NCBI GenBank assembly: GCA_018660825.1
Contig: JABJJO010000089.1
Coordinates: 62,001-126,000, forward strand
Length of the DNA: 64,000 nt
Direction of reading: 5' to 3'
Source: Planctomycetaceae bacterium
GTDB taxonomy: Bacteria; Planctomycetota; Planctomycetia; Pirellulales; Pirellulaceae
In this document: piece by piece, positions 1,747-36,391 of the stretch
How positions within the stretch are numbered: position 1 is the stretch's first letter
Layout: the number at the start of each line of letters is the position of its first letter
The notes under the pieces: model-generated
The model's database searches: none
Told to the model about the DNA's origin: nothing
Seen by the model: the letters and a program-made list of their open reading frames with translations, nothing else
Position numbers and translations under genes: made by a program

Positions 1747-1802
1747 AGTGTCCCACGTTTTACAGCGAAATACAAATGTTTTCAAACTCAGCCGTGGACA
1801 CT
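1747..1802. repeat. Inverted repeat between CBM9-like and nitrilase-like genes
   Basis: AGTGTCCCACG at 1747-1757 pairs with CGTGGACACT at 1793-1802, giving ten base pairs with a single bulged C and a 35-nt loop. On the plus strand it is followed by a T run (1804-1809), but no plus-strand gene ends here. On the minus strand, the direction of the flanking genes, it has no trailing T run, so it is not a standard terminator there. It may be an operator or an RNA structure in the leader of the nitrilase-like gene. Confidence 0.4.
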
Positions 1803-1835
1803 GTTTTTTAGATCGGAGCCATCAAATCTTCACCG

Positions 1836-2960
1836 CTACTTGATCCACAGTCGTGAATCCTGTGTGACACAGGCGGTCCGTCCAGTTGGCAGAGCAATCT
1901 TTGCGAGATAACCAGCATCTGTTTGCTCAATAACCACACCGGCAGCTTTAGCAGAACCAATTCCGAGTTGCTCTAGCGTCGTCCACCACTCACCCGTTTT
2001 GCGATGATTTGATTTTTGTTTGTGGTAAATCTCCATCAGCATCTTCCGCGCGTTCTCCGTCACATCAGGATTCAATCCCACAATACTCTCGTGTTGTTTT
2101 GAGAATTGCACAATACCCCATTTCTCGGGACGATGCATATCGATAATACCCTGCGGAGACCAAACCCAATTATCTTCACGCACATCAGGTACCTTTTTAT
2201 ATTTTCCATCCGCCACGATCGTCTGCCACTGCACCCGCGAGAAGTTGATTCGCCATTGGTCGCCAACAGACGGTGGGTAGCGACGATGGGAATGCCGACT
2301 CAACGCTTTCCAAGGAATAGCAATTTCCACTGACCAATATTGATCAATATCGGACGGGTCGTTAAGTGTTCCTTCAATGTGAATCGCCGTTTTGAGTCCA
2401 GGGATTTCCCAGCCGTTATCAGCCTGGCCTCCATCTTTATATGGTTTGTCAAGAAAAAGGTCCCACCCCGTATTGAGTGCATTGATTTCAAATTCGTAGT
2501 ACTCATGATTATCCGCATCCGGGTCGATGAAGACTTCAAAATCATTATCATGGAAAATCACACTGTCGTGCTCGGTTAGCGTTCCCCAAATATGCGGATC
2601 CGGAAGAAAAGCTCCAATATAGAGATACTTACGATCCCACAACATCTTTACATGGGTGTCAAATCGAGGTCGCGGTTTTACTTTGCCTTCGATATCTTGA
2701 AAGCGATCGGACCACAAGGCCCCTCGCCAAGCAGTGTCATCTAACCGGCCATCAATTTCAATTCGAGATTCCGCTCGATTGGCAACATATTCGCTGCGAG
2801 GAATATCTCGCATCCGTTGCCAATCTTCATACGTGTCCGCCTGCAAAAACGCGACACCCAAGATCCCTAACACAAACAATGCGAAACCTGCGATGGCAAC
2901 AGAACGCCGTCCACGCGGGCAAATTTCAAAAAACACGTTTTCCACTAACGTCACACCCAT
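1836..2960 (-). CDS. CBM9-like (DOMON-type) protein with N-terminal membrane anchor
   Basis: A 374-residue protein with a hydrophobic segment at about residues 19-41 preceded by arginines, so a signal anchor or signal peptide. The rest resembles carbohydrate-binding family 9-like proteins: the opening IEIDGRLDDTAW is the characteristic start, and KMLWDRKYLYIGA and DNDFEVFIDPDADNHEYYEFEI match later strands of the fold. Proteins of this kind bind sugars or other ligands outside the cytoplasm; no catalytic motif is visible. The annotated ATG abuts an AGGGGG sequence with no spacing, while an in-frame GTG two codons later has better spacing, so the start may be 6 bases downstream. The gene follows the STAS gene by only 4 bases, implying shared transcription. 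Confidence 0.78.
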   Translation of the reverse strand: MGVTLVENVFFEICPRGRRSVAIAGFALFVLGILGVAFLQADTYEDWQRMRDIPRSEYVANRAESRIEIDGRLDDTAWRGALWSDRFQDIEGKVKPRPRFDTHVKMLWDRKYLYIGAFLPDPHIWGTLTEHDSVIFHDNDFEVFIDPDADNHEYYEFEINALNTGWDLFLDKPYKDGGQADNGWEIPGLKTAIHIEGTLNDPSDIDQYWSVEIAIPWKALSRHSHRRYPPSVGDQWRINFSRVQWQTIVADGKYKKVPDVREDNWVWSPQGIIDMHRPEKWGIVQFSKQHESIVGLNPDVTENARKMLMEIYHKQKSNHRKTGEWWTTLEQLGIGSAKAAGVVIEQTDAGYLAKIALPTGRTACVTQDSRLWIK

Positions 2961-2964
2961 CCCC

Positions 2965-3306
2965 CTAAAACGAGGTTAAAGCAGAAGGGACATCTGGGTG
3001 GATTTTAAACAGGGTATTGAGTCTAGTGATCGTGAAAATCTTGTCAATTTCCGATGTTAAACCGGCCAATCGTAATGCACCACCAACATCCTTGAACTTC
3101 TTGTTCAACATGATCAAACGGTTCAGCGCTGCACTCGATAGAAATTCAACGGTCGACATATCCAGCACAACTTGTGTCGCACCAGCCGCGACAATTTGGA
3201 ACAACTCGTCACCCATCTGTTGAATATCTTCACTCGCTAGGTATTTATTGCGTTTGAATTGAACGACAGTAATTTCCCCGTTCTTATTTACTTCGATTTG
3301 TTCCAT
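2965..3306 (-). CDS. STAS-domain protein (anti-anti-sigma factor type)
   Basis: A 113-residue, single-domain soluble protein with the fold and length of SpoIIAA/RsbV-type anti-sigma-factor antagonists. The diagnostic segment is VVLDMSTVEFLSSAALNRL at about residues 47-65; Ser57/Ser58 occupy the position of the serine phosphorylated in SpoIIAA. Such proteins are switched by a kinase and phosphatase and release a sigma factor or other partner by binding the kinase. No partner kinase or sigma gene is adjacent; the next gene on the same strand encodes a membrane-anchored CBM9-like protein starting 4 bases after this stop. The domain call is firm and the pathway unknown. Confidence 0.9.
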   Translation of the reverse strand: MEQIEVNKNGEITVVQFKRNKYLASEDIQQMGDELFQIVAAGATQVVLDMSTVEFLSSAALNRLIMLNKKFKDVGGALRLAGLTSEIDKIFTITRLNTLFKIHPDVPSALTSF

Positions 3307-29134: not shown

Positions 29135-29926
29135 CTAAATGGCTTCGCCCATTCGGTATTCTTTGTTCACTAACAGCGTAGCAGCGGTTACTAAACAACC
29201 GACATTGATGGCTGCTAGAAAAAACAGATCAAGGGGAGTGTTGCTCTCAAGGCTAAAGATATTCGGGTCACTCAATATGGGTAAATCAAAAACTTTCCAA
29301 TCCATCCAGCGAATCAACATGGATCGCAAATAATAGTGAATCGTAATTTTATTAACGACGGCCGGTAAAATCGAAATCACACCCTCAAAAGCTACCATAT
29401 AAATGACCGCCATGATCAACGGTTTCTTGTGCATGATCACGCCTAGTAGACAAAACAAGGAGCAATAGGAAACACTGCTCAACGCGATTAACGCGGCAGT
29501 CACACCCACTAGCAATCTAAAATCCGTCTCCAGCGCATGCGATGTTAAGGGCATCATTAACATCAAAGCGAACAGGCCAGCTGCCATACTGCGAGTCACC
29601 GCAACAAGGTATTTGCCGAACATCATGGCAACTTTGCCTTGAGATCGCACTGCCACATACGGCCAAGTGTTACCTTCCAATTCAATGTGCAGAAATGATG
29701 ACATCGACATCAAGGCGTTGAGTAAACATACGGCTCCAGGAATCAACACAACCACCAGCATGCCAGCATCTTCAATCGCGACACTGCCAGCACCGCCTAG
29801 ACGCAAGTTTATCAAAAACTGTAATGCCGAAGGAAAAAGAATAATCAACAACCAAATGATTGTTGGTCCAATACCGAAGGATTGTTTTAGTTCGTATCGA
29901 AAAACTGCTAATATTTTACCAATCAT
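29135..29926 (-). CDS. ABC-2-type transporter permease
   Basis: A 263-residue integral membrane protein with about six hydrophobic segments and a short cytoplasmic N-terminus (KILAVFRYELKQSFG), typical of ABC-2 permeases. It is the last gene of a five-gene minus-strand unit and probably pairs with the ATPase gene 35 bases upstream. Direction of transport for this family is usually export; substrate is unknown. Confidence 0.8.
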   Translation of the reverse strand: MIGKILAVFRYELKQSFGIGPTIIWLLIILFPSALQFLINLRLGGAGSVAIEDAGMLVVVLIPGAVCLLNALMSMSSFLHIELEGNTWPYVAVRSQGKVAMMFGKYLVAVTRSMAAGLFALMLMMPLTSHALETDFRLLVGVTAALIALSSVSYCSLFCLLGVIMHKKPLIMAVIYMVAFEGVISILPAVVNKITIHYYLRSMLIRWMDWKVFDLPILSDPNIFSLESNTPLDLFFLAAINVGCLVTAATLLVNKEYRMGEAI

Positions 29927-29961: not shown

Positions 29962-30897
29962 TTAGGCTTCACCACGATGTATCCGCATCAGCATCTCAAA
30001 CACAGAATCCAGTGAATCGTCTTCACTGTGCAATTCCGTTACCTCAATTCCATTGTCCAATATCATCGCTGCAAAGTTCTGACCAAACAAAACGGCATCA
30101 AAGGTCGTAACCTCCAACCCTTCACCGTCATCATGGAACGAAATCGAATCCACCGTACCAGATGCTTGTAAGGCAATCGCTAAATCCGTCGAGCGTTCTG
30201 CACGAATCCACACCTTACGTGGCACATCTGACAACATCGATTGAATATCGGAAACATTTCCGTCCGCTAATAATCGGCCGTTCATCATCAACAAGAAATT
30301 TTCGCAAATCGTTTCCACTTCATGCAAAATATGACTCGATACGATGAGTCCTCGACCCTCTTGAACCCAGTTGGTTAACATCGACGTCAGTTCGTATCGT
30401 GCAATTGGATCCAATCCGGCAAATGGTTCATCCAACAGCAACAAGTCCGGCTCATGGGCAATCGCCTGAGCAACCTTACAACGCTGCTTCATCCCTCGCG
30501 AATATTGATCTAATCCCCGTACTCGATCCGCACGTGACAACCCGACACGATCCAAGGCTGTGTGTGCCATATCCAAGGCAATAGCATGTCGGTAGCCCAA
30601 CATTTCGGTGTATAGTGTTACCCATTCAAGCCCACTACGTTTGGTCTGCAAGATATCTAGAGCACAGCAAAAACCAATTTTTTCAAGCAGCCTGTTATTT
30701 TTCCAAGGTGTTTCGCCGGCGACATACAGAGACCCCACGGTCGGTTTCAACTGACCTGTCATCAGATTAAGCAGCGTCGTTTTTCCTGAACCATTAGGAC
30801 CTAACAATCCGTAGGAACCCTGTCCGACATCAACGGAGAAGTCGTTCACGCCGACAACAATGCCATAGAGCTTTGTGAGTCTATCTGCCGTAAACAT
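29962..30897 (-). CDS. ABC transporter ATP-binding protein
   Basis: A 311-residue nucleotide-binding subunit. Walker A is GPNGSGKTT, the signature is YSRGMKQRCK (a variant of LSGGQ common in ABC-2 exporters), Walker B is LLLLDEPFAGLDP and the switch histidine lies in SSHILHEVE. A C-terminal domain of about 90 residues follows. It sits between the EF-hand permease gene (98 bases upstream) and the small permease gene (35 bases downstream) and probably powers the latter. Confidence 0.93.
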   Translation of the reverse strand: MFTADRLTKLYGIVVGVNDFSVDVGQGSYGLLGPNGSGKTTLLNLMTGQLKPTVGSLYVAGETPWKNNRLLEKIGFCCALDILQTKRSGLEWVTLYTEMLGYRHAIALDMAHTALDRVGLSRADRVRGLDQYSRGMKQRCKVAQAIAHEPDLLLLDEPFAGLDPIARYELTSMLTNWVQEGRGLIVSSHILHEVETICENFLLMMNGRLLADGNVSDIQSMLSDVPRKVWIRAERSTDLAIALQASGTVDSISFHDDGEGLEVTTFDAVLFGQNFAAMILDNGIEVTELHSEDDSLDSVFEMLMRIHRGEA

Positions 30898-30995: not shown

Positions 30996-32390
30996 TTAAA
31001 CTCGAATAGGTGCCACGATGCGACGTCGTAGAATTATCAAACAAATGACGCAAACCAGACTAACCAACGCAAACGCTAAACCGATACTGCCTGTTTCCTG
31101 GTCCATTCCAAACACCCACGACTGTAGATTTTCAAGTGTTTGCAGCGGGGACAACCATGACCAATTTCCTTCTAATCCCGACTCAACGAACCCCACAAAG
31201 TTAGGTTGATCCACATTATTATTCATACGCACCACGCCTTCCACAACGGTCATTATGCCATAAGCAATCGATCCCATTATCCAAACTGCAAACCAACCAA
31301 AACTAGCAAAAATACTTTCACGTGTCAGCGACGACAAAGTTAATGCAAATAAAGTTGTCGGAACACACAAGACAACGCTGGCAATAATAATTCGTAACGG
31401 TAAATCCCAAGTGACCAGCAAGACGGACATACTCGGTGACAACGCCACTCCCATGCAATACAACATCAAGGCTGGTAGCGTTGTCAAACCTGCCAGAAAA
31501 ACCCATACGATGCCACATTTTCCCAGTAGATACTGCCACGGCTTAATGGGTCGCGAATAATACAACAGAAACGCGCGGTTCTTCATGTCGCGACTGATCA
31601 GTTTGGGCGCTACCATCCCAATGACAATGACAACTGAGAAGGCCTGTGGAATAATAAAAAAAGTGAATAGTATCTGAGCCCATAATGTGGGTCGCAAATA
31701 ATCAACAAGTTCACGAAACTCTATCACTCCACTACCATCTAAATCATATCCCAACAAATCTCTGGCAACCTCTTGAGACCGTTGCAGTTTATGCTTGGAT
31801 TGTTTAAACAAAGCTGACGGCCCTTGTCCAGCTTGCCCTCGACGGCGACCTCCAATTCCTCCCATCATACGAGATGTCGTCTGGCCAAACATCATCTCGA
31901 GCATCTCCGGCGACATATCCGCAACAAACTTCAGATCCTCAACATCAAAACTTATCTCCCCACCAAAAATACCACCCTGCTGCCTCGCATCGCCTTGATC
32001 CGGATTGTCCGCGTCTTTATCCACGTCTATTCCCAGCGAGCCGAAGACACCCTGAGTCAGTTGTGAGGCTACTTTATCAAATTGTTTTTTGATCGACGTG
32101 ATCATCACAATGTTAGATATTTCCGGACGTTGCATGATAATAATACTGACAACCGGACGTCCCAAGTTCATTGGGAACTCATCCGAATCAACATCTTGAA
32201 TCGACTGCTCCAATATAAACAAGGCCACTCCCATTACTAAGATAGGGAGCCACGCTAGCAGGAAAATGCGACGGAGCCAACTACTCCGCCAGGCGACACG
32301 AACGCCAAAACTTGTAATCGTTGTCCACTGGTGACTGCCAATCTTCGGAGTCAATTCCCATTTGCGATATCCCAGGTTATTAATGCCCAT
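30996..32390 (-). CDS. ABC-2-type permease with EF-hand-like extracytoplasmic loop
   Basis: A 464-residue permease starting at the ATG at 32390, overlapping the end of the upstream ATPase gene by 11 bases; a longer frame to 32483 lies inside that gene and is rejected. TM1 is at about residues 40-60 with arginines before it, so the N-terminus is inside. A soluble segment of about 180 residues follows, placed outside the cytoplasm, and carries an EF-hand-type loop DLDGSGVIEFRE at residues 216-227. About five further membrane segments occupy residues 240-460. Soluble insertions after TM1 occur in some ABC-2 permeases, but a calcium-binding-type loop is unusual. Confidence 0.82.
   Translation of the reverse strand: MGINNLGYRKWELTPKIGSHQWTTITSFGVRVAWRSSWLRRIFLLAWLPILVMGVALFILEQSIQDVDSDEFPMNLGRPVVSIIIMQRPEISNIVMITSIKKQFDKVASQLTQGVFGSLGIDVDKDADNPDQGDARQQGGIFGGEISFDVEDLKFVADMSPEMLEMMFGQTTSRMMGGIGGRRRGQAGQGPSALFKQSKHKLQRSQEVARDLLGYDLDGSGVIEFRELVDYLRPTLWAQILFTFFIIPQAFSVVIVIGMVAPKLISRDMKNRAFLLYYSRPIKPWQYLLGKCGIVWVFLAGLTTLPALMLYCMGVALSPSMSVLLVTWDLPLRIIIASVVLCVPTTLFALTLSSLTRESIFASFGWFAVWIMGSIAYGIMTVVEGVVRMNNNVDQPNFVGFVESGLEGNWSWLSPLQTLENLQSWVFGMDQETGSIGLAFALVSLVCVICLIILRRRIVAPIRV
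31710..31745 (-). other. EF-hand-type loop coding segment within ABC permease
   Basis: These 36 bases encode twelve residues that fit the canonical EF-hand loop: Asp1, Asp3, Ser5, Gly6, Ile8, Glu9 and Glu12. Flanking residues (VARDLLGY before, LVDYLRPTL after) could form the two helices. It is the only such loop in this protein. Confidence 0.65.
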
Positions 32391-33312
32391 TGGTTGCCTC
32401 CTGGACCACCTGCATAAAGACTTGCTCCATACTGATCTTGGCGGGCACCACACTCTGGACACTAATTTGCACGGCTTTTGCACATTCCCAAATCAACCGA
32501 TCGCCGCGGGCATCAATGTTGGATACCGTTATCACGTTATGGTTTCCCAATACCGCCATTGCCCCACGCTGAACCACTTCCGCTATAAACAGTTGAGGAT
32601 CTCCCAGAACACGTACTTGAAAGGACGGTGTTGCCGGTTTACGCAGCTTTTCGACTGTCTGCAACAGCGGCACTCGACCATCAACCATCACGGCCGCGTA
32701 TTCACAAATGTCTTGTACATCTTTCAATATATGTGTGCAGATCATTACTGACATAGAAGATTCACTACCTAGTAGTTTAATCCGGTTAAGCATCGCCGTC
32801 CGCTCTTCTGGATCAAGTCCGCTGGTCGGTTCATCCAAAATTAGTAATTTGGGCGAGTGCACGATCGCTTGAGCAAACTTCAGCTTCTGTCGCATACCGG
32901 TCGAATACGTTTCGACTTGTCGGTAACGTTCTTGGCCTGTACCACAAAAATCCAATACCTCGTGAGCACGCTGCAACGAAGGCAATTGCGGATAGCCGGT
33001 AAGCTGGGCCGCAAATTGAACCATCTCGACACCGGCGATCCCCTCGATAAAGCAATCATCCTCAGGCATATAACCTACTTGCGACCGAATCTCTTGGAAA
33101 TTCCATGGAACCACTTGGTGTCCTAGAATCTCACCCCGACCATCTGTCAGTTTTACTAAACCCAGCAGAACTTTGATCAACGTACTTTTACCAGCGCCAT
33201 TTGGCCCTAGTAAACCAATAATGCCCGGGGGAATCTCAACAGACACATCATCTAAGGCAAGAAATCTGCCATAGCGTTTCGTGACATTTTGTAGAGATAT
33301 GATCGATTCCAT
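32380..33312 (-). CDS. ABC transporter ATP-binding protein
   Basis: A 310-residue ABC ATPase. Walker A GPNGAGKST, signature YSTGMRQKLK, Walker B LLILDEPTSGLDP and switch region CTHIL are all present, so it should be active. The ATG at 33312 starts MESIISLQNVTKRYG; a further ATG 15 bases upstream is also possible. Its stop overlaps the start of the EF-hand permease gene by 11 bases, so these two are surely partners. The GYF-domain gene lies about 150 bases upstream on the same strand. Confidence 0.92.
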   Translation of the reverse strand: MESIISLQNVTKRYGRFLALDDVSVEIPPGIIGLLGPNGAGKSTLIKVLLGLVKLTDGRGEILGHQVVPWNFQEIRSQVGYMPEDDCFIEGIAGVEMVQFAAQLTGYPQLPSLQRAHEVLDFCGTGQERYRQVETYSTGMRQKLKFAQAIVHSPKLLILDEPTSGLDPEERTAMLNRIKLLGSESSMSVMICTHILKDVQDICEYAAVMVDGRVPLLQTVEKLRKPATPSFQVRVLGDPQLFIAEVVQRGAMAVLGNHNVITVSNIDARGDRLIWECAKAVQISVQSVVPAKISMEQVFMQVVQEATNGH

Positions 33313-33465
33313 GCAGCGGACACTCACTAGATGCTCTTAAAATAAACAAATCGATGGACAACGATTTTGCGTTGTCGTTGTTTCAGTTCTATACGGTGGA
33401 GTGGACACATTAGTGCATATATTAGATAGAAATATTCCACAAATATTTTTGACAACAACTTCACG

Positions 33466-34035
33466 TTAAACGGATTCTGACGGTTTCCTTTTACCACGAA
33501 TGAACGACCACACCGAAGATATTAACAACAACCCAACAATCGCTGTGGAAAGCAACGCCGACGTTTGCGAACCACTCTGAACAGCCACAAATAACCCTGC
33601 AATCGCTGGAAACAGCAATGCAGTTGCAATTGCAAACAGCACAATAAACACCCGCTCCGATTCGCCTTCAATTTCAATATCCTGATTGAGCTTTTCAATT
33701 TCACTCAATCGGTCGATCACCGTCTGCCTATTCGGAGTGGATTTTTGTTCACTTACTTTAGTCCGCACCGAAACAGTAACATCTCGATTGCATTTTGGAC
33801 AACGACATGGCACCTGCAGAACAGGCGCCGAACAATATGGGCAAACGGTCTTGGCAACTTCGGCTTCTAATGCCTCAAACAATCCACCAACCGCAGATGC
33901 ATTGACCCACTGAGCGTCGTCTTTACGAATACGTGTTTCCGGTTTGATCACACCTTGTTCAACAAGTTGCAATAAATCGAAATTTGATATCGGACCAACT
34001 TCGTCCTTACCAAGCTGATAAAACCAGTTTGTCAT
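33466..34035 (-). CDS. GYF-domain / zinc-ribbon membrane protein
   Basis: A 189-residue protein in three parts. Residues 3-55 form a GYF_2-type domain (NWFYQLGKDEVGPISNFDLL, ending near AVGGLFE). Residues 67-88 form a zinc ribbon with cysteines in CPYCSAP and CRCPKCNRD. Residues 128-185 hold two membrane segments separated by a short loop. GYF_2 domains usually bind proline-rich partners and are common in planctomycete and other bacterial membrane proteins. It is first in the five-gene ABC unit and may act as an accessory or sensor; its role is inferred from position only. Confidence 0.8.
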   Translation of the reverse strand: MTNWFYQLGKDEVGPISNFDLLQLVEQGVIKPETRIRKDDAQWVNASAVGGLFEALEAEVAKTVCPYCSAPVLQVPCRCPKCNRDVTVSVRTKVSEQKSTPNRQTVIDRLSEIEKLNQDIEIEGESERVFIVLFAIATALLFPAIAGLFVAVQSGSQTSALLSTAIVGLLLISSVWSFIRGKRKPSESV

Positions 34036-34228: not shown

Positions 34229-34274
34229 GTATTCGTGTTAACAAAACAAAGATGTGTGCCACAAATATTTTGCT

Positions 34275-34907
34275 ATGGCGTTTCCAACATCGTACAACCA
34301 TTTGGAGTTGGCACTAACAAAGAACGGAAAGTTTTCTAGGAGGCCTTGTCTTATTGTGGAAACCAATTGCCAACAGCTTGAACTATGTTCGCTCACGGAG
34401 TCATTTTGCGAAAAAGTTTCAAGCCATTTAAAATACGTCGCAAGCAAACGATTGCACACATTAGTGCGCCCTTACCTCGACTCGATTGATGTAACTCAGA
34501 TGGTATGGAAATCATTCCTGCAACATGATCAAACTCGTTTCACCGACTGGGATAAAAAACGTTTACGTGGTTATTTAGAACAAGTGCTCGATAACAAACT
34601 AAAAGAGATCCATCGTCGATACCTATCCTATCAAATCCGCAACGTACGGCGCAATGAGAAGGAAACGGAAGAAATACTTGAGAACCACACAGCTCCTGAA
34701 GAACCGCCAAAGCAACAGTTGACCGACACCGACAACTGGCGGCGGATGTGTGCGGCGCTCACGCACATCGAACGCCGCGTATTATTGCTTCGCATTCAAG
34801 GTCGAACATTGAATCAGATATCAGACGAACTTGAATTGCATAGACGCTCAGTCCAAAAAATAATGCTACGAGTACGTAAGAAATTTGTTGAAGCGAGTGG
34901 GGATTAG
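34275..34907 (+). CDS. ECF-type RNA polymerase sigma factor
   Basis: A sigma-70-family protein of the small ECF type. Region 2 is represented by DSIDVTQMVWKSFLQ and region 4 by RVLLLRIQGRTLNQISDELELHRRSV cut here into RVLLLRIQGRTLNQI and LELHRRSVQKIM, the latter being the recognition helix. The start is uncertain: ATG 34275 gives 210 residues, GTG 34254 gives 217, and an in-frame GTG at 34356 lies 12 bases after a perfect AGGAGG (34338-34343) and gives 183 residues, closer to the usual ECF length. No anti-sigma gene is adjacent. A beta-CASP hydrolase gene follows on the same strand. Confidence 0.8.
   Translation: MAFPTSYNHLELALTKNGKFSRRPCLIVETNCQQLELCSLTESFCEKVSSHLKYVASKRLHTLVRPYLDSIDVTQMVWKSFLQHDQTRFTDWDKKRLRGYLEQVLDNKLKEIHRRYLSYQIRNVRRNEKETEEILENHTAPEEPPKQQLTDTDNWRRMCAALTHIERRVLLLRIQGRTLNQISDELELHRRSVQKIMLRVRKKFVEASGD
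34338..34343 (+). promoter_or_regulatory. Strong Shine-Dalgarno inside the annotated sigma ORF
   Basis: AGGAGG occurs 12 bases before an in-frame GTG at 34356. No comparable site precedes the upstream start codons, so translation may begin at 34356. The spacing is longer than the usual 5-9 bases, which leaves the choice open. Confidence 0.4.
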
Positions 34908-34978
34908 TAGAATAGGTGGTACTGCCAGACGGTACTATTTTCTCATCCATATTTAATCACAGGACGCTGCCACAATTT

Positions 34979-36391
34979 ATGAAAATTCACTTCTTAGGTG
35001 CTAATCAACAAGTCACCGGTTCATGTTACTGTGTTGAAGTAGCGGGACATCGCTTACTCATTGATTGCGGGTTATATCAAGAACGTCCATACGTGTCTCG
35101 CAACTGGGAAGATCTGCCAATCGAACCCGCGTCAATCGATGCTATGGTTCTTACACACGTGCATATTGATCACATTGGCCTGCTACCCCGGCGAGTTGCT
35201 GAAGGACTCGACGTCCCCATCTACATGACCCAGCCTTCTGCTTCATTAGCTGAAATCATGCTCCGCGACTCCGCTAAAATTCAAGAAGAAGACGTCGCTC
35301 AAAAACTTAAGCGTCATAAAAGAGACAACCACAAATCACGCTTTGACGTAAAACCTTTATACACGGAGGAAGATGTCGAACGAACGCTGCCGATGATCCG
35401 CAGTGTTACCTATAACAAGACCACATCCTTGTGCGACGGCGTCTTTCAAGTCACCTTTAAAGAAGCCGGACATATTCTTGGTTCTGCGATGCTTGAAATC
35501 GTCGTCCGTGAAAACAATAAAACTCAAACCATTGTGTTCTCAGGCGATATCGGACAATGCGACAAACCGATTATTCGCGACCCCGCCACATTTGAACACG
35601 CTGATTATGTGGTCATGGAATCTACTTATGGCGATCGCAACCATGCCTCACACGGCGATGGCGAACAACAACTAGGCGATATCATCAAACAGACAGTGCT
35701 GCGCGGTGGGAATGTAATCATCCCGACATTCGCCGTCGAACGTTCCCAAGAGTTAATCTATTATTTAAGTCGACTCGTCCAATCAGGCAGCATCCCTCAG
35801 GTTCCGGTGTTTCTCGATAGCCCGATGGCAGTGGATGTAACACGAGTGTTTCAAAAACACCGCGATTGTTTTGATCAAGATGCGTGGAATATGATTATCG
35901 AAGGCAAATCAATTTTGGATTTTCCGGGCATGCACCTTTGCCGGTCACGCGAAGAATCTATGCAAATTAACACCTTTAAAGAACCTTGCGTTATTATGTC
36001 AACCTCAGGAATGTGTACCGCGGGGCGCATTAAATTTCATTTACGCCAGAATATTTCCGACGAAAAGGCCGCCATTGTTTTTGTTGGATATCAAGCCTAT
36101 GGCACCCTCGGCCGGCAAATTTCCCAAGGCGACAAGTCCGTGCGAATCCACGGCCGCCATTATGATGTGCGAGCGGAAGTAGTCCGTCTTTCGGGGTTTT
36201 CCGGACATACGGATCAAAACGGCCTGCTCGACTGGATCAGCCACTTCGGTGACAGTCCCCAGCAGGTTTTCTTGACCCATGGCGATTTGGATGCAGCGGA
36301 AACTTTGTCCAAACTAATAACAGAACAATGCGGTCTCGGCGTGACCATCCCCGAATTCCACCAAACCGTCGACTTGGACCAGCAATATTAA
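34979..36391 (+). CDS. Beta-CASP metallo-beta-lactamase-fold RNase-like hydrolase
   Basis: A 470-residue protein starting at the ATG at 34979, where the family N-terminus KIHFLGANQQVTGS begins; the frame extends 21 codons upstream without family character. The MBL zinc motif is LTHVHIDHIG (His60, His62, Asp64, His65). Beta-CASP features include MESTYGDRNH, FAVERSQELIYYL and STSGMCTAGRIKFHL, and the last part has SGHTDQNGLL with a metal-binding histidine. Relatives such as CPSF73-like and bacterial YSH1-type proteins are RNases, so RNA processing in the cytoplasm is likely. Confidence 0.92.
   Translation: MKIHFLGANQQVTGSCYCVEVAGHRLLIDCGLYQERPYVSRNWEDLPIEPASIDAMVLTHVHIDHIGLLPRRVAEGLDVPIYMTQPSASLAEIMLRDSAKIQEEDVAQKLKRHKRDNHKSRFDVKPLYTEEDVERTLPMIRSVTYNKTTSLCDGVFQVTFKEAGHILGSAMLEIVVRENNKTQTIVFSGDIGQCDKPIIRDPATFEHADYVVMESTYGDRNHASHGDGEQQLGDIIKQTVLRGGNVIIPTFAVERSQELIYYLSRLVQSGSIPQVPVFLDSPMAVDVTRVFQKHRDCFDQDAWNMIIEGKSILDFPGMHLCRSREESMQINTFKEPCVIMSTSGMCTAGRIKFHLRQNISDEKAAIVFVGYQAYGTLGRQISQGDKSVRIHGRHYDVRAEVVRLSGFSGHTDQNGLLDWISHFGDSPQQVFLTHGDLDAAETLSKLITEQCGLGVTIPEFHQTVDLDQQY

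Follow-up and report, generated by a model that had tools for sequence, protein, structure and literature searches.

A lineage-specific EF-hand-type insertion between the first two membrane helices of a planctomycete ABC-2 permease

Results

An EF-hand loop inside an ABC-2 permease

We identified an EF-hand-type loop inside an ABC-2 permease of a Planctomycetaceae bacterium, in a 64,000-nucleotide stretch of DNA (hereafter the window); judged by its conservation in related sequences, it appears to be a genuine, lineage-specific insertion of an EF-hand into an exporter of a known kind. The loop, DLDGSGVIEFRE, is located at 31710-31745 (minus strand) and, in the minus-strand translation, forms residues 216-227 of the 464-aa permease; a plus-strand reading of 31710-31745 was rejected, having a stop in the same frame. 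Its 12 residues carry D1, D3, S5, G6, I8, E9, and E12, followed by a leucine, so that oxygen ligands are present at positions 1, 3, 5, 9, and 12. The preliminary description of this DNA had reported a loop with the EF-hand pattern at this place in an ABC-2 permease, and translation confirms it, with support from conservation in orthologues and from a profile search.

The loop is the sole match to the PROSITE EF-hand pattern (applied to the window and to the orthologues in the form that we take it to have) among 46 non-overlapping ORFs of the window. Shuffling gave an expectation of 0.06 pattern matches window-wide, with at least one match in 5.6% of 500 shuffles, so a scan of a whole window sometimes yields such a loop, and the motif taken alone, after a look at the whole window, is only suggestive; for a match in the permease alone, the shuffles gave P = 0.0008. 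What sets the loop beyond chance is its conservation in orthologues, the constraint on its codons, and the profile search (see below).

The permease gene and its ABC cassette

The permease gene is located between 30996 and 32390 (minus strand, ATG start), as delimited by its Pfam match and by the starts of its orthologues. Its product matches ABC2_membrane_2 (PF12679) with 51.2 bits, exceeding the curated cut-off of 27.2. We chose the ATG at 32390 over a longer ORF starting with GTG, since the orthologues begin at the same M-x-I-[NH]-[DN]-[LV]-G-Y-R. We also observed that the N-terminus of the permease family (32358-32390, minus strand, in the window) has a kept opening motif, M-x-[IL]-[HN]-[DN]-[VL]-G-Y-R-x-W, whose M, GYR, and W occur in all of the 12 diverse members aligned.

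Three neighboring genes, all on the minus strand, make up the rest of the cassette: a first ABC ATPase (ATPase 1) at 32380-33327 (Pfam ABC_tran, 95 bits), which overlaps the permease start; a second ABC ATPase (ATPase 2) at 29962-30897 (Pfam match); and a second membrane protein at 29135-29926, without a Pfam or NCBIfam match, whose product is presumed to be a fast-changing partner permease. Both ATPases are also neighbors of the permease in relatives. A match to ATPase 1 was found in 230 of 232 loci (all fetched for the permease, some from the same genome), and the order ATPase 1, permease, ATPase 2 is kept in 17 of 18 loci (again some from the same genome), with the EF-hand present or absent; the exception, L008, lies on a contig that ends ahead of ATPase 2. 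The second membrane protein is present in 14 of these 18 loci; three others (L004, L008, and L010) end too early to include it, and it was not found in the L065 locus. Sequence similar to it was observed in 115 of the 232 fetched loci. NCBIfam gave no family name for the permease, and its best names for ATPase 1 are far below their cut-offs (drrA, 192.7 vs 312.45 bits; GldA, 167.4 vs 402.6 bits), so we name no substrate for the exporter.

Further upstream of ATPase 1, at 33466-34035 (minus strand), the window encodes a GYF_2-domain protein with a membrane-like segment. Its position is kept in the closest relative, L031, and in L032 a match with 39% identity lies past the second membrane protein, on the opposite strand. 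In the stretch 34254-36391 (plus strand), an ORF that by eye is sigma-factor-like immediately precedes one that by eye resembles an MBL-fold RNA-processing enzyme.

Topology of the TM1-TM2 segment

Hydropathy places TM1 at residues 37-67 (32190-32282, minus strand) and TM2 at residues 235-269 (31584-31688, minus strand), and hydropathy together with charge counts suggests an extracytoplasmic segment between them, residues 68-234 (31689-32189, minus strand), which ends with the EF-hand. An alignment of 12 diverse family members shows R233, just ahead of TM2, and W237, at the start of TM2, in every one. Lysines and arginines stand against aspartates and glutamates at 7 vs 1 before TM1, 5 vs 1 between TM2 and TM3, and 19 vs 26 between TM1 and TM2. 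These positive-inside counts favor a segment outside the cytoplasm, with a cytoplasmic N-terminus and TM2-TM3 stretch, which agrees with the usual ABC-2 layout; both lines support the earlier proposal that the loop faces away from the cytoplasm. The soluble segment, put at about 180 residues in that proposal, is close to the ∼167-173 residues found here. Between conserved anchors, the TM1-TM2 length is 158-170 residues in the permease's own genus and 149 in a sister genus, as compared to a median of 43.5 (range 24-231) in 162 relatives.

Predicted fold of the segment

AlphaFold models were built from four sequences, for the full-length permease (mean pLDDT 44.8, poor) and for the TM1-TM2 segment alone (61.4, middling). 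Both models predict an entering helix at residues 199-213 (31752-31796, minus strand) and a two-residue bridge at 222-223. The leaving helix is predicted to be continuous with TM2 in the full model (residues 225-264; 31599-31718, minus strand; low confidence past 236), and spans residues 225-245 in the segment model, where the block of residues 201-240 (model residues 131-170) has a pLDDT of 72-81. Flanking helices are thus predicted on both sides of the loop (199-213 and from 225), and the helix-loop-helix for which the preliminary description proposed a structure prediction does appear in these four-sequence models; a fold lacking such helices had been named there as evidence to the contrary.

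An EF-hand usually has a second EF-hand as its partner. Residues 141-157 (31920-31970, minus strand) may hold one: the models have a bridge strand at 148-149 and then a short helix, and F148, D152, and L153 are invariant in 8/8 genus members, a possible trace of a worn-out EF partner. The EF ligand pattern is absent from this unit in the genus alignment, and the genus permeases yielded no further loop with the EF pattern. Counted by eye on the alignment, the spacing of loop starts would be 75 residues in the genus as against about 40 in the sister genus; a three-unit EF array, with the loss of one unit of about 35 residues, is no more than a guess, and the supposed middle unit is without ligands. 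Structure comparisons added little: Foldseek gave no usable match, its best E being 1.7 with the loop model and 1.2 with the full one, and VIA-align gave Z-scores of at most 3.6, with the unrelated PPX/GppA first among 50 rows, many of which are calcineurin B, calmodulin, and troponin C. We give these VIA-align matches no weight, since they reflect no more than a helical arrangement of a common kind.

Conservation in the genus and the sister genus

The permease is present in 8 of the 9 genomes of its genus (the ninth genome is 69% complete); the seven other orthologues share 54-93% identity with the window permease, and the sister-genus proteins about 37% overall. The loop is kept in 8/8 genus members (DLDGSGVIEFRE, DLDDSGVIEFRE, DKDGNEVIDFRE, DKDNNDVVDFRE, DHNGDGLVDFRE, DNDGNEFIDFKE, DLNNSEVIEFAE, and DKDGNEVVDFTE), and the sister genus (2 genomes) has DLDKDGLVTRDE at the equivalent place. 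D1 and E12 are invariant in the eight orthologues and in both sister-genus proteins. Either D or N occupies position 3, and S, N, or D position 5; at position 9 the genus members carry D or E and the sister-genus proteins T. Position 6 is G in 3/8, D in 1/8, and E in 4/8 of the genus members. The full PROSITE pattern is matched by 4/8 genus members and 2/2 sister-genus proteins. Homologues lacking Asp1, Asp3, or Glu12 had been named as counter-evidence to the EF-hand; these residues are kept in the genus (8/8, with D or N at position 3) and in the sister genus (2/2), and it is in the wider family that they are lacking, where the block itself is missing.

The five ligand columns (1, 3, 5, 9, and 12) all hold D, E, N, or S in 8/8 genus members. 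Among the 170 columns of the segment, 22 are D, E, N, S, or T in all eight members, the five ligand columns included (hypergeometric P = 2.4e-5, uncorrected for relatedness), and no other 12-residue window of the segment has that ligand layout in the eight members. Codon comparisons among seven genus sequences (the near-copy L002 was left out) point in the same direction: pN/pS, uncorrected and, with synonymous changes near saturation, to be read as a comparison rather than as a rate, amounts to 0.11 for the five ligand codons, the lowest of the codon sets compared, and 0.575 at the seven other codons of the loop. The variable stretches of the segment have 0.649 (residues 94-147) and 0.564 (161-197), the conserved stretches 0.236 (66-93) and 0.226 (148-159), and the membrane core (236-411) 0.209.

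Profile searches and other EF-hands

Pfam EF-hand_1 matches the window permease with E 0.0052 and 16.7 bits, below the curated cut-off of 25.4; at E <= 1 it matches 8/8 genus members (best 1.6e-4), and an EF-hand pair model is matched by 5/8. A genus profile built from the second half of the segment (8 members) had 201 matches at E <= 10 among PDB sequences, the best being CML18 (E 7.8e-5), and the best 60 of the 201 all carry EF-hand protein names (for example, calmodulin, calcineurin B, polcalcin, troponin C, and calbindin); in these alignments single domains are weak, and the score adds up several EF-hands of the target. The PDB search with the single sequence gave nothing significant (best E 0.24, langerin; caltractin had E 1.8 over residues 204-233).

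The source organism, as far as its sequence indicates, has several other EF-hand proteins. EF-hand_5 matches 68 places of its genome (G000) at E <= 10, nine of them above the cut-off (contigs C62, C153, C56, C42, and C211); the E <= 10 threshold is loose, and matches were found in 12 of 14 control genomes too, above the cut-off in three.

Distribution and origin

The permease was found in 115 of the 199 family genomes drawn, mostly with short TM1-TM2 loops; in 135 of 396 order genomes (with a shorter profile); and in 107 of 392 phylum genomes at E <= 1e-10, the weaker of which may be other ABC-2 permeases. Among the 115 matching family genomes, 109 were read, and then G169 through its order-search locus; G042, G057, G110, G120, and G187 were left out of the reading. 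The EF version occurs in 10 of 241 family genomes (E <= 1e-30) and only 2 of 68 genera, so the EF-hand is a lineage-specific insertion and no general theme among these permeases; of the homologous permeases, those of the genus and the sister genus have this loop, and those of the wider family lack it. Among 205 distinct protein strings from the family, order, and phylum loci (some of them the same gene with different ends), 11 have EF loops; two near-identical relatives contain an unrelated loose match, DIDLDTVLDQPE, which we take as chance. In the family alignment, in which L035 is cut short, the non-EF rows are gapped at the 12-residue block just ahead of TM2, apart from L079, which has residues at that block that deviate from the pattern.

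A FastTree phylogeny computed from 173 rows of the membrane core, with the EF columns removed, places the ten EF-bearing tips in one group with support 90 (read after re-rooting), and these ten together with L057, a relative without the loop, with support 96; long branches meet at the EF group, as the tool warned. The simplest reading of this tree would be a single gain before the two genera split.

Proposed role of the EF-hand

We consider a calcium-stabilized structural clamp to be the best explanation as a whole, with a probability of about 0.55. A planctomycete ABC-2 export permease from a widespread family would have gained a block of ∼105-125 residues between TM1 and TM2, before the split of the window's genus and one sister genus. 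The block ends in the EF-hand, whose leaving helix is predicted to run on into TM2. Outside the cytoplasm, the EF-hand probably binds a single Ca2+; because calcium is usually plentiful there, high and steady, the site is likely to be occupied for most of the time. Once filled, the site would serve as a clamp, stiffening and orienting an outer cap together with the outer end of TM2 as the two ATPases power the presumed export. Position 6 of classical EF-hands is a glycine, and a glutamate there is unfavorable; the loss of Gly6 in 5/8 genus members with the ligands kept mildly fits a structural or weakened site. Weighed against the clamp are the sub-threshold Pfam score, the Glu or Asp at position 6 in those five members, the departure of four of the eight genus members (but of neither sister-genus protein) from the PROSITE pattern, the poor to middling four-sequence models, the lack of a significant Foldseek match and the low VIA-align scores, and the want of a clear partner.

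Several of these same points lend themselves to a calcium-free helix-loop-helix, in which the acidic loop would be a structural turn, a contact surface, or a Mg2+ binder, and an EF-hand relic in most members: the replacement of Gly6 by Glu or Asp, the window permease's own score below the Pfam cut-off, and a possible partner unit that has no EF ligand pattern. We regard this as possible but doubtful: against it stand the invariance of D1 and E12 out to a sister genus at about 37% identity and the pN/pS of the ligand codons, the lowest among the sets compared (0.11 vs 0.575 at the other loop codons).

The preliminary description had proposed an exporter gated by extracytoplasmic calcium. Binding and release of Ca2+ would tilt the helix continuous with TM2 and so switch the exporter by outside calcium, by analogy with SLC25A24. 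Gating is conceivable because the EF helix seems to enter TM2 (in the low-confidence full model) and because EF-hands control some mitochondrial carriers, but we think it unlikely: a clear EF-hand pair is missing, Gly6 is lost in 5/8 genus members, outside calcium is usually high and steady, and the EF-less relatives retain the same neighboring ATPase genes, so this type of pump does not need the EF-hand. The gating claim is not supported; a structural site accounts no less well for the Gly6 loss and the rarity of the insertion, and an ABC-2 exporter in which Ca2+ at a built-in EF-hand moves the outer end of TM2, with export tracking outside calcium, seems improbable to us. If true, calcium gating would be a new way of controlling an ABC exporter; a structural site, if true, would make a neat yet modest case of domain insertion.

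An accidental resemblance of an acidic loop to the pattern, suggested by the matches in 5.6% of the whole-window shuffles and by the unrelated loose match in two near-identical relatives, is very improbable given the conservation in ten orthologues, the codon constraint, the EF-hand profile match, and the predicted flanking helices.

Comparison with known systems

The window permease resembles other PF12679 permeases in its membrane core, its hydropathy-derived TM layout, its positive TM2-TM3 stretch, and its neighboring ATPase gene, and differs in its TM1-TM2 segment of ∼170 residues with a terminal EF-hand, as opposed to the median of 43.5 residues and the absence of the loop in the 162 relatives. 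It shares with the EF-hands of PF00036 (calmodulin, calcineurin B, and CML18) the 12-residue ligand loop, the predicted flanking helices, and the profile match; unlike classical EF-hands, there is one clear loop, it lies between two membrane helices, and Gly6 is not kept in five of eight members.

SLC25A24 and other calcium-regulated mitochondrial carriers have an EF-hand module that lies outside the matrix, in the intermembrane space (PMC5369052), and the permease is similar to SLC25A24 in that an EF-hand module is tied to a transporter (PMC5369052). SLC25A24 has an unrelated membrane domain, four N-terminal EF-hands, and shown regulation, whereas here there is one loop inside the permease. 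Bacterial EF-hands outside the cytoplasm are already known: CaBP of Caulobacter vibrioides is a periplasmic EF-hand protein, one motif of which has a changed position 6 (PMC13171946); it is a free periplasmic protein, whereas here the EF-hand is built into a transporter. Calcium in DxDxDG-type loops can be structural or regulatory (PMC3123361). The passages covered of a review of bacterial calcium proteins (PMC10574481), which refers to a 2006 survey of EF-hand proteins in bacteria, contain no EF-hand ABC-2 permease, and none was recognized among the matches listed, by title and abstract opening, in the open-licence literature; since the coverage was open-licence only, this silence says little for novelty. 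Because some close relatives have the module and others lack it, they offer a natural comparison for asking whether an outer metal site stiffens or controls an ABC exporter.

EF-type loops in a distant family member

We also observed two EF-type loops, DVDNDGLISGSE and DANLDGYVDRLE, in the permease of L065 (genome G029; 1798-2985, minus strand), a distant family member from a third genus. They are 25 residues apart, in the TM1-TM2 segment at a different place from the window EF-hand, and neither fits the full PROSITE pattern; Pfam EF-hand_5 matches this permease with E 6.5e-5 and 22.7 bits (cut-off 25.9). The L065 loops look like a separate gain, and EF-type modules seem to have entered the segment twice, because the tree needs two trait changes; L065 is on a long branch and its place in the tree is unsure. 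A separate gain of such a loop pair would, if true, make a calcium-moved TM2 a repeated solution.
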